From contig NZ_WTVS01000025.1 of the NCBI RefSeq assembly GCF_012911005.2, forward strand, positions 1-64,000: a DNA stretch of 64,000 bases. Direction: 5' to 3'. Under the pieces are notes generated by a model that saw only the letters and a list, made by a program, of their open reading frames with translations, was not told the origin of the DNA and searched no databases. Shown here one piece after another: positions 36,812 through 44,389 of this stretch. The translations under genes were made by a program, and so were the position numbers. Every line of letters begins with the position of its first letter. Position 1 is the first letter of the stretch. The DNA comes from Aromatoleum toluolicum (GTDB taxonomy: Bacteria; Pseudomonadota; Gammaproteobacteria; Burkholderiales; Rhodocyclaceae).

Positions 36812-36887
36812 GGGGGTATAGCTCAGTTGGTAGAGCAGTTGACTCTTAATCAATTGGTCCTAGGTTCGAGTCCTAGTGCCCCCACCA
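36812..36887 (+). tRNA. tRNA-Lys(CTT), integration target
   Basis: A 76-nt cloverleaf with encoded CCA; anticodon loop CTCTTAA gives CTT. Acceptor GGGGGTA pairs with TGCCCCC and the T stem CTAGG/CCTAG is perfect. Its 3' 47 nt are repeated exactly at 44343-44389, so the functional gene now consists of chromosomal 5' sequence and a 3' end supplied by the integrated element. Confidence 0.96.
36841..36887 (+). other. attL (47-bp core within tRNA-Lys)
   Basis: Left copy of the 47-bp repeat, running from the anticodon stem to the CCA end of the tRNA. The base after it differs between the two copies (A here, G at the right), marking the repeat's edge. Confidence 0.93.
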
Positions 36888-36895
36888 AATAAAAC

Positions 36896-36929
36896 AAGGG
36901 CTTGCAGCGATGCAAGCCCTTTGTCTTTT
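36896..36929 (+). terminator. Terminator behind tRNA-Lys(CTT), carried by the element
   Basis: A perfect 11-bp stem AAGGGCTTGCA / TGCAAGCCCTT with a GCGA loop, followed by TGTCTTTT. It lies inside the element, so the element brings both the tRNA 3' end and a terminator to replace the displaced original one at 44397. Confidence 0.82.
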
Positions 36930-36930
36930 G

Positions 36931-36956
36931 GCTCGGGCTATCACCGGGCTAGCACG
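36931..36956. repeat. 26-bp element end repeat, left copy
   Basis: Identical over 26 bp to 44201-44226 and in the same orientation. Inside it CGGGCTA occurs twice (CGGGCTATCA and CGGGCTAGCAC). It lies 44 bp inside attL. Likely an arm-type site for integrase or a site for the element's regulator. Confidence 0.75.
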
Positions 36957-37176
36957 AAGAGGAAAACAAGCCCCTCGGTTTGGCGCGTACCCGAGTGCGT
37001 ACCTGCTCCCTCAGAAGACTCCCCCGCTTTCCGTGGTAACCACTTTGGAAACTAGCGGTGATCGGCTTCCAACCTTCCTCGTTTGATTCCGTCGTAGACG
37101 GGAAAATTTTCTGCGCGTGCGATACCGCGCGGTTTCCACGTCCGCGCCTTCGAGACTTTTGGCCCGCCCCCGGCTG
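36957..37176. other. Element left-end spacer without recognisable gene
   Basis: AT-richer than the host. It holds a near-palindrome GTGGTAACCAC around 37034. A 77-codon minus-strand open frame here has Arg/Ser-rich noise composition and is not called. Confidence 0.5.
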
Positions 37177-37386
37177 CTACTCGATCTCGCGCCGCTGTAG
37201 GTCTTGCTCGCGCAGCGCCCGTGCCACCTCCCGTAGCATCTCACGCTGACCGCCCTTATAGGCGTTGAGCGATACAGTCGCCTTGCCGTCCGCTGTTCGC
37301 GGCCCCGTCGAGTGTTCCCACGGTCTCCATTGACGGATCATTACCGCTTGTCGCGCCCGCCGTTCCGAAGTCCAACTACTCGCCAT
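37177..37386 (-). CDS. Small conserved element protein with STGPRT/GKA motif (69 aa)
   Basis: A 69-residue basic protein. It matches a pattern I know from small proteins of proteobacterial mobile elements: WRPWEHSTGPRT, DGKATVSLNAYKGGQR, then a basic helix (EMLREVARALREQDLQRREIE). No function is established. The start was chosen because GAGG lies 8 nt upstream; a start seven codons further out has no ribosome binding site. It lies at the far left end of the element, beyond the divergent secreted-protein gene. Confidence 0.6.
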   Translation of the reverse strand: MASSWTSERRARQAVMIRQWRPWEHSTGPRTADGKATVSLNAYKGGQREMLREVARALREQDLQRREIE

Positions 37387-37504
37387 CCTCGTCGCCTCTT
37401 CCGGCATTGACGCAGATCAGACCTATATATGCCGCTTGAGTTCATCATAACCCGCAGTAGGTCGCACGCGGTCCATATGGCTTTGCCAAGATAGGGAGCG
37501 AAAC

Positions 37505-42204: not shown

Positions 42205-42867
42205 CTAGCCCGCATTATCTTTCGAGGCGTTGCGCAGCCAGTCGTAAATAGTTCGTTGTGCGTTGAATGGGGAAAGGTTCGCCCCGATAGTCTTTCCGTG
42301 CGCGACCACTTCATCTCTGAGTTCATGCGCCGCTGCATTTGGTGACGACCAAGTGCGGGCACGAAACTTCGCTACAGCCCACTGTTCAAGTTCGCGCATG
42401 GCTGCGTGCCGCTTCTCGCCACCAGTTTGTCCCCGTCTCGTTGCCTCGACCTTGATGACAAGACCTCTTGTGTAGTTGTCGGACTCGTAAACTACAAGCC
42501 CGCTGCGCAGGTCGTCCATCAGGGAATAAAACCACTCAGCGTAATCCGCAGCCTTTTCAAACTGTTTGCGCCGATGCGATCGGAGGGCAGCTTCGGCGTA
42601 GATGCCTCCTAGGAAAATAATAATTGCATAATATTCGCCAACTTCAAGTGGTCGCAGTTCGGAAAAATCGAGTACCCGATTGATAGGGTCCCACGCGCGG
42701 CGAATCGGATGATCATAGCCCTTTACTGTCGCATTACGATAATCGTAGAGCTCTTTCACTAGTGCACGTGCATCATATTCGTCGCACGTAAGCACTCCTT
42801 GCGCTTGATGGGCGTTGATCTTGAACGTTTCGAGCAATCTGCCGAAGAATATGGTGAAGGTGTCCAT
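42205..42867 (-). CDS. Unknown cargo protein between integrase and AlpA-like regulator (220 aa)
   Basis: A 220-residue soluble protein I do not recognise. The N-terminal 150 residues are mainly helical and aromatic-rich (DTFTIFFGRLLETF, LVKELYDYRN, VGEYYAIIIFLGGIYAEAAL, YAEWFYSLMDDL). A basic linker (RRGQTGGEKRHA) leads to a C-terminal helical domain ending NLSPFNAQRTIYDWLRNAS. That end resembles putative helix-turn-helix tails on other mobile-element proteins. AAGGGG precedes the ATG. The gene is less GC-rich than the rest of the element, and its slot beside the integrase is where satellites often carry anti-phage genes; no defence domain is visible. Confidence 0.7.
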   Translation of the reverse strand: MDTFTIFFGRLLETFKINAHQAQGVLTCDEYDARALVKELYDYRNATVKGYDHPIRRAWDPINRVLDFSELRPLEVGEYYAIIIFLGGIYAEAALRSHRRKQFEKAADYAEWFYSLMDDLRSGLVVYESDNYTRGLVIKVEATRRGQTGGEKRHAAMRELEQWAVAKFRARTWSSPNAAAHELRDEVVAHGKTIGANLSPFNAQRTIYDWLRNASKDNAG

Positions 42868-42975
42868 CCCGCGCCCCTTTGCGCTAGCCCTTGAAAGGGT
42901 GCCGCGCCAGCCGGGCAAGGGAACCCGGTTTTCCTCCCGTCGGAGTAGGCGCGGCAAAACTCAGGTTCTTTCAGG

Positions 42976-44184
42976 TCAAGCAGCGGTGTTCTTCTTCGTC
43001 GGCAGCGGCAGTACGTCCGCACCGTGTTTCAGCCCTGCGGCCTCCAGCATGGCCGATGTTGCCGTGTTGATGCTCTGGCGCACCGGGTCCAGTTCCAGCC
43101 GGGCATAGATCGCGGTCGCTTGCTGGCTCTTGTGGTTCAGGCTCTTGCCGATGATTGCCATGCTCGCCCCGGTCATCGCCTGCCAGCTCCCCAGAGTCCG
43201 CCGCAAGTCATGGATGCGGAGATTTGCCAGCCCTGCACGCTTCAAGATGCCTTGCCATGCCTTTTTCGGCTCCACCAAGTGCCCGGTCCTTCCATCTCCC
43301 GGGAACACGAAAGGCGAGCCGCTGGCGGCTTCCTTGCGTGCTTGCAGAACCGCAACTGCCTCGGGACTGAGCGCGACATTCTGCGGCGTGCCGTTCTTTG
43401 TCATGGCAATGCGCCAGATAGCGCGCTCCACATCCACATCGGCCCAGCGCATCGCGCAGAGGTTCGCACGGCGTGCACCTGTCAGCAGCGCCAGCAGGAA
43501 AAAGTCACGTTGCGAACTCTCGGCAATCGCCTCGAACAGCCTTGGGAGCTCGTCAGCACCGGCAAAGCGGTCGCGGGACGGTTCGGCATAACCTCGCACA
43601 CCTGCCGCCGGGTTCTCGCCCGAGTACATCCGCCGATCGAGCGCATAGGCGTACAGGGAAGAGACCAGCGCCCGCGCCCTATTCGCCATGAAGGGAGTTT
43701 CCGCGCCGACCTTGCGATGTAGGTTCGCAATGCGCTCATGTCCAACCGCAGATAGCTTCAGGGGCATGATCTTCGACAGCGGACCTTGTGCGATCAGGCG
43801 ATAGCCCTTCTTCGTGCTCTCCGCCAGCGGGGTGCCGTCCTTCTTCCGCTTGTGCTTCAGGTAGTCGTCGAAGACTTCCAGTAGCGTCGGCTCGCCCCGG
43901 TAGGCGCGTCGCGCCTCGGCAGGGTTCGCGCCGCTCGCAAACTCCGCCAGCACGTCGAGCGCCGCATTCCGCGCCTGCTCCACCGTCATGTCAGGGAAAG
44001 CGCCCAGCTTCACCCAGGCCATTGAGCCGCCTGCCCGCTTCACGACGTAGAAAGTGCGAGCGCCGGTAGCGGTAACCCGCACTGCCAGCTTCTTCACTTC
44101 GGTGTCGTACAGCGTCTTGCGCTTACCTGCTTCGGGCAACTCCAACCCTTGCAGAACCGTCTTCGTGAATTTCAGGCTGTCCAT
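42976..44184 (-). CDS. Tyrosine recombinase (integrase), P4/DUF4102 type
   Basis: A 402-residue site-specific recombinase. An N-terminal DUF4102-like arm-binding domain (KKLAVRVTATGARTFYVV, AWVKLGAFPDMTVEQAR) precedes a core-binding domain (residues 100-200) and the catalytic domain. Catalytic residues are Arg238 (TGARRANL), Lys263 (MTKNG), His325 and Arg328 (HDLRRTLGS), His351 (LNHKSQQ) and the nucleophile Tyr360. The ATG was chosen because AAAGGTG lies 8 nt upstream; longer in-frame starts would run through the 26-bp end repeat. It sits next to attR, reading inward. Confidence 0.95.
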   Translation of the reverse strand: MDSLKFTKTVLQGLELPEAGKRKTLYDTEVKKLAVRVTATGARTFYVVKRAGGSMAWVKLGAFPDMTVEQARNAALDVLAEFASGANPAEARRAYRGEPTLLEVFDDYLKHKRKKDGTPLAESTKKGYRLIAQGPLSKIMPLKLSAVGHERIANLHRKVGAETPFMANRARALVSSLYAYALDRRMYSGENPAAGVRGYAEPSRDRFAGADELPRLFEAIAESSQRDFFLLALLTGARRANLCAMRWADVDVERAIWRIAMTKNGTPQNVALSPEAVAVLQARKEAASGSPFVFPGDGRTGHLVEPKKAWQGILKRAGLANLRIHDLRRTLGSWQAMTGASMAIIGKSLNHKSQQATAIYARLELDPVRQSINTATSAMLEAAGLKHGADVLPLPTKKNTAA

Positions 44185-44200
44185 ATACGCACCTTTCATC

Positions 44201-44226
44201 GCTCGGGCTATCACCGGGCTAGCACG
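44201..44226. repeat. 26-bp element end repeat, right copy
   Basis: Identical to 36931-36956. It sits 17 bp upstream of the integrase start codon, so it covers the likely integrase promoter or leader as well as the right attachment arm. Confidence 0.75.
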
Positions 44227-44261
44227 GACTAGCAAATTTGGGGAAATTCGGTGCTAGCCCG
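44215..44261. promoter_or_regulatory. Inverted repeat in the integrase control region
   Basis: CGGGCTAGCAC (44215-44225) and its exact reverse complement GTGCTAGCCCG (44251-44261) face each other across 25 bp upstream of the integrase gene. The left copy of the end repeat lacks this second half. A dimeric regulator or recombination protein could bind here. Confidence 0.5.
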
Positions 44262-44342
44262 TTAAGGTCAGTATGGCCCAACAACGTTGCTGTGTATAGG
44301 ATAGATAAGATTGCGTAATCACTGCACGAATCTCGACCCAAA

Positions 44343-44389
44343 GACTCTTAATCAATTGGTCCTAGGTTCGAGTCCTAGTGCCCCCACCA
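44343..44389 (+). other. attR (47-bp core, displaced 3' end of tRNA-Lys)
   Basis: Exact second copy of the tRNA-Lys(CTT) 3' half. The 5' half of the tRNA is absent here, so this is not a second gene but the chromosomal remainder of the original one. Confidence 0.94.

Follow-up and report, generated by a model that had tools for sequence, protein, structure and literature searches.

What is the small island that interrupts a tRNA-Lys gene of Aromatoleum toluolicum, and how might it copy and spread itself? The window analysed here is a stretch of 64,000 nucleotides from contig NZ_WTVS01000025.1, and the island within it occupies 7.5 kb between 47-bp copies of the 3' end of tRNA-Lys(CTT). A preliminary description, made from the letters alone, had seen a compact satellite-like element with a general P4-like resemblance that must depend on a helper or be a stripped relic. 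The bounded, satellite-like element withstood our analysis, while the relic and P4 readings fared poorly; that description had overlooked a repeat array, a structured RNA between the int and alpA genes (int-alpA RNA) and a sibling element in the same genome. The island probably belongs to a widespread family of small islands that resemble phage satellites and would depend on a helper, and whose DUF3987 protein appears to read its own replication origin by a two-residue code.

An inverted iteron array follows the DUF3987 gene

Just 3' of the DUF3987 stop codon, short repeats in one orientation are followed by the same repeats reversed. The strict test asked for a hexamer with two or more copies on the left and two or more reversed copies on the right; 93 of 96 loci were testable (three that were too short were dropped, and near-copies were kept). 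The array was found 3' of the DUF3987 gene in 87 of the 93, and in 80 of these 87 it outscored every other non-overlapping 400-nt stretch of its locus. The iterons follow steps of 6-9-9 in 57 of 86 left arms and of 9-9-6 in 59 of 86 right arms, with a median of 25 nt between the arms; the window array keeps both step patterns exactly around a 25-nt spacer of 60% GC, and two loci (L048 and L138) have the arms exchanged. The 93 loci fall into the iteron classes GCGAC (33), GCTAC (35), GCTAA (14) and GCTAT (4), with seven unclear, and the sibling element, on contig C242, belongs to the GCGAC class like the window island. A looser array test assigns a class to L122, L127 and L137. Near DUF3987 proteins of about 30% identity, the presence of an array is mixed. 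We read the array as the putative replication origin of these elements.

Two DUF3987 residues co-vary with two iteron bases

An AlphaFold2 (AF2) model of the window DUF3987 protein (predicted local distance difference test, pLDDT, 87.5) ends in a C-terminal winged helix, in which residues 460 and 464 lie four apart within the predicted helix 459-465. To relate protein to array we used 76 non-redundant proteins of the GCGAC, GCTAC and GCTAA classes (81 before near-copies were removed); four GCTAT loci, seven unclear loci, the L078 protein, which has a stop, and five near-copies above 95% were dropped. Among 487 alignment columns, residue 464 ranked first for iteron base 3 and residue 460 first for base 5, and each residue alone determines its base in this set. 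Base 3 was G with R (31) or N (1) at position 464 and T with Q (42), T (1) or K (1), the values for N, T and K each resting on one training row, and base 5 was C with R (46), N (14) or K (2) at position 460 and A with A (9) or S (5).

On a quick tree built from the first 430 residues, with the C-terminal part left out, the three iteron classes required 32 changes versus a shuffled mean of 33.9, a value reached or undercut in 47 of 200 shuffles. Independent pairs gave ten agreements, no opposing case and one without change for base 3 (p 0.002), and 7-0-0 for base 5 (p 0.016). The rule was then applied to 30 held-out loci, namely 26 of 28 new ones (L220 and L221 were left out) together with L025, L027, L031 and L033. 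Nine were copies of training rows and were not counted; 14 of the 21 that were left carried an array, those of L210 and L217 with a score of 3, below the earlier cut of 4. The prediction for base 3 was correct in 13 of these 14 loci; for base 5 it was correct in 9 of the 11 for which the rule gives one, which it does not for L208, L210 and L211. Without L025 and L033, whose arrays were already known, the results were 11 of 12 and 7 of 9.

The winged helix and the array are exchanged together

In L073 and L099 the helicase part is 96% identical, the winged helix is only 49% identical and the iterons differ; L061 (GCGAC) and L079 (GCTAC), another close pair of different class, show 95% versus 52%. 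Winged-helix identity averaged 50% in 75 such close pairs of different class, which are not mutually independent, versus 72% in 77 pairs of the same class. Since close pairs of different class diverge so sharply in the winged helix, the winged helix and the array appear to move together, and from these comparisons we read them as an initiator-origin pair that is exchanged as a cassette.

An operator would explain the code differently: DUF3987 or a partner would bind the array and regulate the downstream genes, so that the code is real and its role transcriptional. orf154 contains the array in its 5' part, where binding could block transcription, but the proposed binding protein is encoded upstream of the array. 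Moreover, Gram-negative phage-inducible chromosomal islands (PICIs) have the same layout in their pri-rep-ori, with two iteron sets behind a primase and a helicase, and one such island with int, alpA and pri-rep-ori was shown to have a functional replicon (PMC6092414); covariation with swapping has been described for the initiator and origin of PLE, the phage-inducible chromosomal island-like element of Vibrio cholerae (PMC8263062). We therefore regard an operator as unlikely and prefer the origin.

The island is bounded and its integration site is empty in some relatives

The two tRNA copies are identical at 47 of 47 positions with a spacing of 7502, and the repeat ends there, the next base being A at 36888 and G at 44390; the perfect direct repeat first described was thus confirmed. 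A 26-bp direct repeat lies just inside both island ends, and its copies are putative integrase arm sites, because the integrase has the arm-binding domain PF13356. The preliminary description had proposed looking for an empty tRNA-Lys(CTT) site with one 47-bp copy, and we compared 17 genomes of the genus, including the window genome, each of which gave a match to the left flank. Of the 16 genomes other than the window's, six (G167, G044, G298, G299, G233 and G192) show the left flank with a single 47-bp copy, behind which the right flank of the window follows directly; the start of this right flank, over 100 bases, is diverged in G192. A looser seventh case is G213, where the right flank (75% identical) comes soon after tRNA-Lys(CTT) and the two tRNA genes are 2.2 kb apart. 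In the remaining nine, the site holds other DNA or the locus is not resolved, and because other DNA follows the tRNA there, the site looks like an integration hot spot.

Different islands occupy the tRNA-Lys(CTT) site in the genus relatives L160-L169. Those of L161, L163, L165 and L166 contain a stretch resembling the int-alpA RNA region of the window, and the left end in L162 retains most of the same subterminal repeat.

Related elements in other tRNA sites, the other comparison that had been proposed, were also found: a direct repeat overlaps a tRNA gene in 18 of the 66 loci with enough flank, window included, with copies 5.8-13.2 kb apart at eight kinds of tRNA (Lys, Ser, Leu, Thr, Arg, Phe, Val and Met). 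One of these loci, L126, was counted through a tRNA-like repeat with no called tRNA gene, and some boundary repeats are short (17-18 bp in L048, L055, L064 and L073). At the 5' end of trpG, L109 has two identical 7439-bp units in tandem (L109:4861-19452 and L183:1-2317), with the core at 4861, at 12300 and then at L183:2301 in the next stretch; repeated site-specific integration would produce such copies, and an assembly fault is also possible.

The sibling on contig C242 encodes a DUF3987 protein 92% identical and a primase 73% identical to those of the window island, together with orf154 (62%), orf186 (62%) and orf76 (72%); its integrase is distant (29%), and no right boundary was found for it. 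These observations bear on whether the window island is a non-mobile or decaying relic. The window copy has no recognised packaging gene, its cargo is without family match and the closest integrase among the loci is 56% identical, all of which would suit a relic. We nevertheless think this improbable, because the core frames are open, the att copies are identical over 47 bp and the array is intact, because the sibling has retained these replication genes, and because the site is empty in six genus relatives.

Spread of the family

A DUF3987 match, near or far, was found in 56 of 297 genomes of the host's family and in 48 of 399 genomes of its order, and the int-alpA RNA (RF02996) scored above cut-off in 90 of the 297; within the window genome this RNA occurs only at the window island and the sibling. 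A wider scan with one genome per species gave 222 related places, from which 79 loci were taken; viral contigs supplied seven more, including one of only 29% identity. The sources include Rhodocyclaceae, Nitrosomonas, Burkholderia, Halomonas, Methylomonas and Competibacter; single bins labelled outside Pseudomonadota also match, and contamination is possible for single cases. A phage collection returned four records, 25-26% identical and none covering 80% of the query, and a plasmid search 45 records, all below 60% identity. At the gathering score, RF02996 was present in six of eight sources scanned whole and absent from L040 and from the Escherichia coli K-12 region. By similarity to the window's proteins in 54 loci with room on both sides, the integrase was found in 38, the primase in 37, orf154 in 19, orf186 in 15, orf76 in 14, AlpA in 8 and the winged-helix-turn-helix (winged-HTH) protein in 6; other AlpA-like or fused primase frames, visible by eye in several loci, lie outside these counts.

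Relation to known satellites

The gene order int, alpA, pri-rep, ori of Gram-negative PICIs, which have two iteron sets at ori, sometimes TerS (the small terminase subunit) and accessory genes (PMC6092414), is matched by the window island, its ori being the proposed one. The window rep, however, is a DUF3987 protein with a separate Toprim primase, TerS is absent from the window copy, and the PICI iteron sets as described flank an AT-rich region, the two mirrored sets of the window a 25-nt spacer of 60% GC. Also close are the phage-inducible chromosomal minimalist islands (PICMIs), small islands with an integrase, AlpA (PF12728 in the PICMI model) and a DUF3987/DUF5906 primase, without capsid-remodelling genes (PMC10803314). 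The window island holds integrase, AlpA and such a primase together, as PICMIs do. Applied to complete bacterial genomes, the first PICMI model recovered 135 int+alpA+prim elements, of which Vibrionaceae accounted for 67; PICMI115 is mobilized by phage, needs int, alpA, prim and an int-overlapping gene, and is excised when alpA alone is expressed (PMC10803314). PICMIs as reported there adjoin fis in Vibrionaceae, whereas the window island lies in tRNA-Lys(CTT) and its relatives in other tRNA genes or at trpG, and the window island differs further in its separate Toprim primase, its int-alpA RNA and its iteron array and in having no int-overlapping gene; the main text of the PICMI paper does not contain the word iteron.

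PLE offers a parallel drawn without a claim of homology. The DNA-binding domain of its initiator co-varies with the iterons of the origin, and the two have been exchanged as one module at least twice, with the phage nuclease Odn, which attacks the origin, as a possible driver (PMC8263062); the PLE initiator is instead of the RepA_N type and its iterons are about 30 bp long. CP4-57 of E. coli K-12 shares the order int, alpA and then DUF3987 (yfjI) but lies beside ssrA, has no RF02996 at the gathering score and encodes a DUF3987 protein only 32% identical to that of the window.

The resemblance to P4 consists of an integrase, an AlpA-like protein, primase/helicase replication and small size (PMC8628076). 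Using the P4 definition given in that paper, we found no match to the psu, delta, epsilon and alpha families (PF07455, PF04606, PF10554 and PF03288) at E 0.1, and P4 membership was rejected. Gram-negative PICIs and PICMIs are closer, and by best inference, from analogy with them, the island would be a PICI/PICMI-like phage satellite and not P4.

Packaging genes and a possible helper

The first description listed an integrase beside attR, an AlpA-like regulator and a primase/DUF3987 operon in a complete element with no virion, packaging or conjugation genes. The former are borne out by family matches (PF00589, PF12728, PF13362 and PF13148), and the latter by the repeat, the empty sites and library scans: Pfam, PHROGs and NCBIfam gave none of the ten island proteins a match to a virion, terminase or relaxase family at E <= 0.001. 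Two weaker matches came from PHROGs: the AlpA-like protein matched a terminase-small-subunit family at 0.004, through an HTH common to both, and orf76 matched a minor tail family at 0.08. Because the window copy encodes no recognised packaging proteins, packaging by a helper is proposed.

A few relatives are better equipped. Genes for a major head protein, a protease and a portal lie downstream of the array in L133 (L133:5469-8178), and L134 has a neck-type protein upstream and major head, HNH and TerS-type proteins downstream (L134:3417-9544); the capsid genes of both are HK97-type, a combination with the backbone like that of capsid-forming PICIs, whereas the window copy has none. TerS genes occur in at least six relatives (L077, L112, L119, L123, L125 and L134), in L119 on the other strand near the far end. 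When 130 proteins were scanned, of which 127 are encoded downstream of the array in 65 loci, Terminase_2 was found in four, Terminase_4 in one, an Sf6-type terminase in one and capsid proteins in two among the matches listed. With TerS or capsid matches in so few loci, it is a minority of relatives in which the backbone comes with packaging genes, and these gene contents suggest that capsid-carrying members exist in the family. Together with the gene order and the PICMI precedent (PMC10803314), this lends indirect support to the satellite-like character first proposed.

The same genome contains an HK97-type prophage (G000:C188:28357-37676; L223 and L224) with Pfam matches to capsid, protease, portal, large terminase, HNH and tail chaperone families, the portal match being the only one in the genome. 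This prophage is a possible helper.

Conjugative transfer, in which the island would be an integrative mobilizable element borrowing a relaxase, is a shade less probable than the relic: an oriT on the island is possible, but none of its ten proteins belongs to a relaxase family in the three libraries, and TerS or capsid genes are joined to this backbone in some relatives. Relaxase and type IV secretion genes, which define integrative conjugative and mobilizable elements, gave no match in the library scans.

Other genes of the island

Coordinates are collected in Table 1. Nine genes lie on the minus strand and are read from the right end in the order integrase, orfB, AlpA-like, winged-HTH, Toprim primase, DUF3987, orf154, orf186 and orf76; a gene for a signal-peptide-like protein of 171 amino acids is the only one on the plus strand. 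In functional terms the order is int, int-alpA RNA, alpA, Toprim primase, DUF3987, array and variable genes. The integrase perhaps starts at an internal ATG, at 44199 or 44184.

Table 1. Features of the island and its integration site (positions in the window)
Feature	Position	Strand	Support or remark
tRNA-Lys(TTT)	36696-36771		
tRNA-Lys(CTT), integration target	36812-36887	+	attL core 36841-36887
26-bp subterminal direct repeat, left copy	36931-36956	+	putative integrase arm site
orf76, distal gene	37177-37407	-	tblastn matches in 18/96 loci, window included
171-aa protein, signal-peptide-like N terminus, cargo	37505-38020	+	open reading frame; our own signal-peptide rule
orf186, distal helical protein	38035-38595	-	18/96 loci; AF2 pLDDT 61.6, low confidence
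orf154	38568-39032	-	array falls in its 5' part; 31/96 loci
Inverted iteron array (GCGAC class), proposed replication origin	38904-38988	-	
DUF3987 helicase, proposed origin-binding initiator	39029-40555	-	PF13148 E 6e-95
DUF3987 C-terminal winged helix	about 39056-39259		code residues R460 and R464
Toprim_3 primase	40552-41511	-	PF13362; phrog_2249 DNA primase 2e-61
Winged-HTH protein (HTH_39)	41433-41972	-	PF14090 E 7e-19
AlpA-like regulator/excisionase (HTH_17)	41849-42121	-	PF12728 E 8e-10; phrog_66 E 8e-6
orfB, cargo between int and alpA	42205-42867	-	
int-alpA RNA (RF02996), between int and orfB	42888-42955	-	70.9 bits, gathering 35.8, E 1.4e-13
Tyrosine integrase, adjoins attR	42976-44235	-	PF00589 E 7e-23; PF13356 E 1e-13
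26-bp subterminal direct repeat, right copy	44201-44226	+	
attR, 47-bp tRNA 3'-end copy	44343-44389	+	

orfB matched nothing in the 95 other loci and no family in Pfam, PHROGs, NCBIfam or PADLOC; the 171-aa protein likewise had no family match at E 0.001 in the first three libraries and none in PADLOC, and no defence system was matched by PADLOC for six proteins. A signal-peptide-like gene in opposite orientation near the distal end recurs in L051, L059, L126 and L130. By our rough rule, exported cargo is not enriched distally (14 of 64 distal versus 18 of 136 flanking genes, p 0.15). orf186 and orf76 usually co-occur at the distal end (17 loci in common), match no known family and are candidates for a packaging or hijack role.

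A frame of the orf154 type is called in 43 of 65 loci, spans the array in 42 of these 43 and encodes ATxATxA runs, so that the repeats might be merely the DNA face of a repeated Ala-Thr-Val peptide, but this is very improbable given the mirror symmetry at the DNA level with its fixed 6-9-9 / 9-9-6 steps, the in-frame stop codon between the arms in L046 and L047, the exchanged arms noted above and the way the iteron letters track the DUF3987 residues.

Discussion

DUF3987 was earlier predicted to be a helicase of mobile-element replication (PMC5862659). In our Foldseek search of the PDB, which gave no match at E <= 0.001, it weakly resembles MCM helicases (best E 1.7e-3).

Several observations weigh against a helper-dependent satellite with a coded origin. 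By the strict test, six of 93 loci are without the array (none in L118, L122, L127, L129 and L139, and an unrelated word in L137), as is the position 3' of yfjI in CP4-57, and seven held-out loci have no array or only half of one. The code residues sit in helix 2 of the winged helix and not in helix 3, which is the usual recognition helix of this fold. When the GCTAT loci were restored, giving a second set of 79 loci after near-copy removal, L101 broke the base-3 rule (R with T), and residues N, T and S occurred with T at base 5; in the held-out test the rule missed both bases of L213 and base 5 of L217. On the tree, the loci of class GCGAC show some clustering (19 changes versus 24.7 when shuffled, as low in 3 of 500). 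Similarity to the window's AlpA was found in only 8 of the 54 loci, and similarity to its integrase and primase in 38 and 37. The two loci with capsid genes, L133 and L134, are metagenomic contigs, and the TerS of L134 matches PHROG and not Pfam; a circularity check of 21 short contigs found no exact terminal repeat of at least 15 nt. Finally, the island shares no 16-nt word with the 40 kb around the C188 prophage, on a 73-kb contig. The sibling shares two with that region, overlapping in a 17-nt stretch and by position within its DUF3987 coding part; with no words from the island and only these two overlapping ones from the sibling, a cos or pac site shared with the prophage was unconvincing within these 40 kb, and the idea was rejected.

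Taken together, the results lead us to propose the following course for the satellite-like island. A helper phage would raise AlpA, and AlpA and the integrase would excise the island from tRNA-Lys as a circle. DUF3987 would bind its own origin, the inverted array 3' of its gene, through the C-terminal winged helix, open it and act as the helicase together with the Toprim primase, after which the copies would be packaged by helper proteins. Residue 464 would set the iteron, R or N giving GCGA and Q, T or K giving GCTA, and residue 460 the last base, R, N or K giving C, sometimes T, and A or S giving A. The sibling and the window island have the same GCGAC class, so cross-reaction between them is expected. 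Winged helix and array would be swapped together between elements, and frequent swaps may be an answer to origin-directed phage nucleases or to competition between siblings.

The initiator-origin code is new here: in open-licence PubMed Central, with subscription papers and preprints outside the search, we found no paper describing an origin for DUF3987 elements or such a code. DUF3987, a family of unknown function, thereby gains a testable job and a candidate origin, and overlooked islands become elements whose replication specificity is readable from two residues. With somewhat less assurance than for the window island itself, we favour the wider view that DUF3987 proteins are origin-binding replicative helicases whose winged helix and origin form an exchangeable cassette, switched repeatedly by satellites across Pseudomonadota, perhaps against phage nucleases or sibling interference, with one backbone serving capsid-less and capsid-carrying satellites alike. 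The results also point to a single replicon, with an address that changes often, common to satellites that have capsid genes and to those that lack them.

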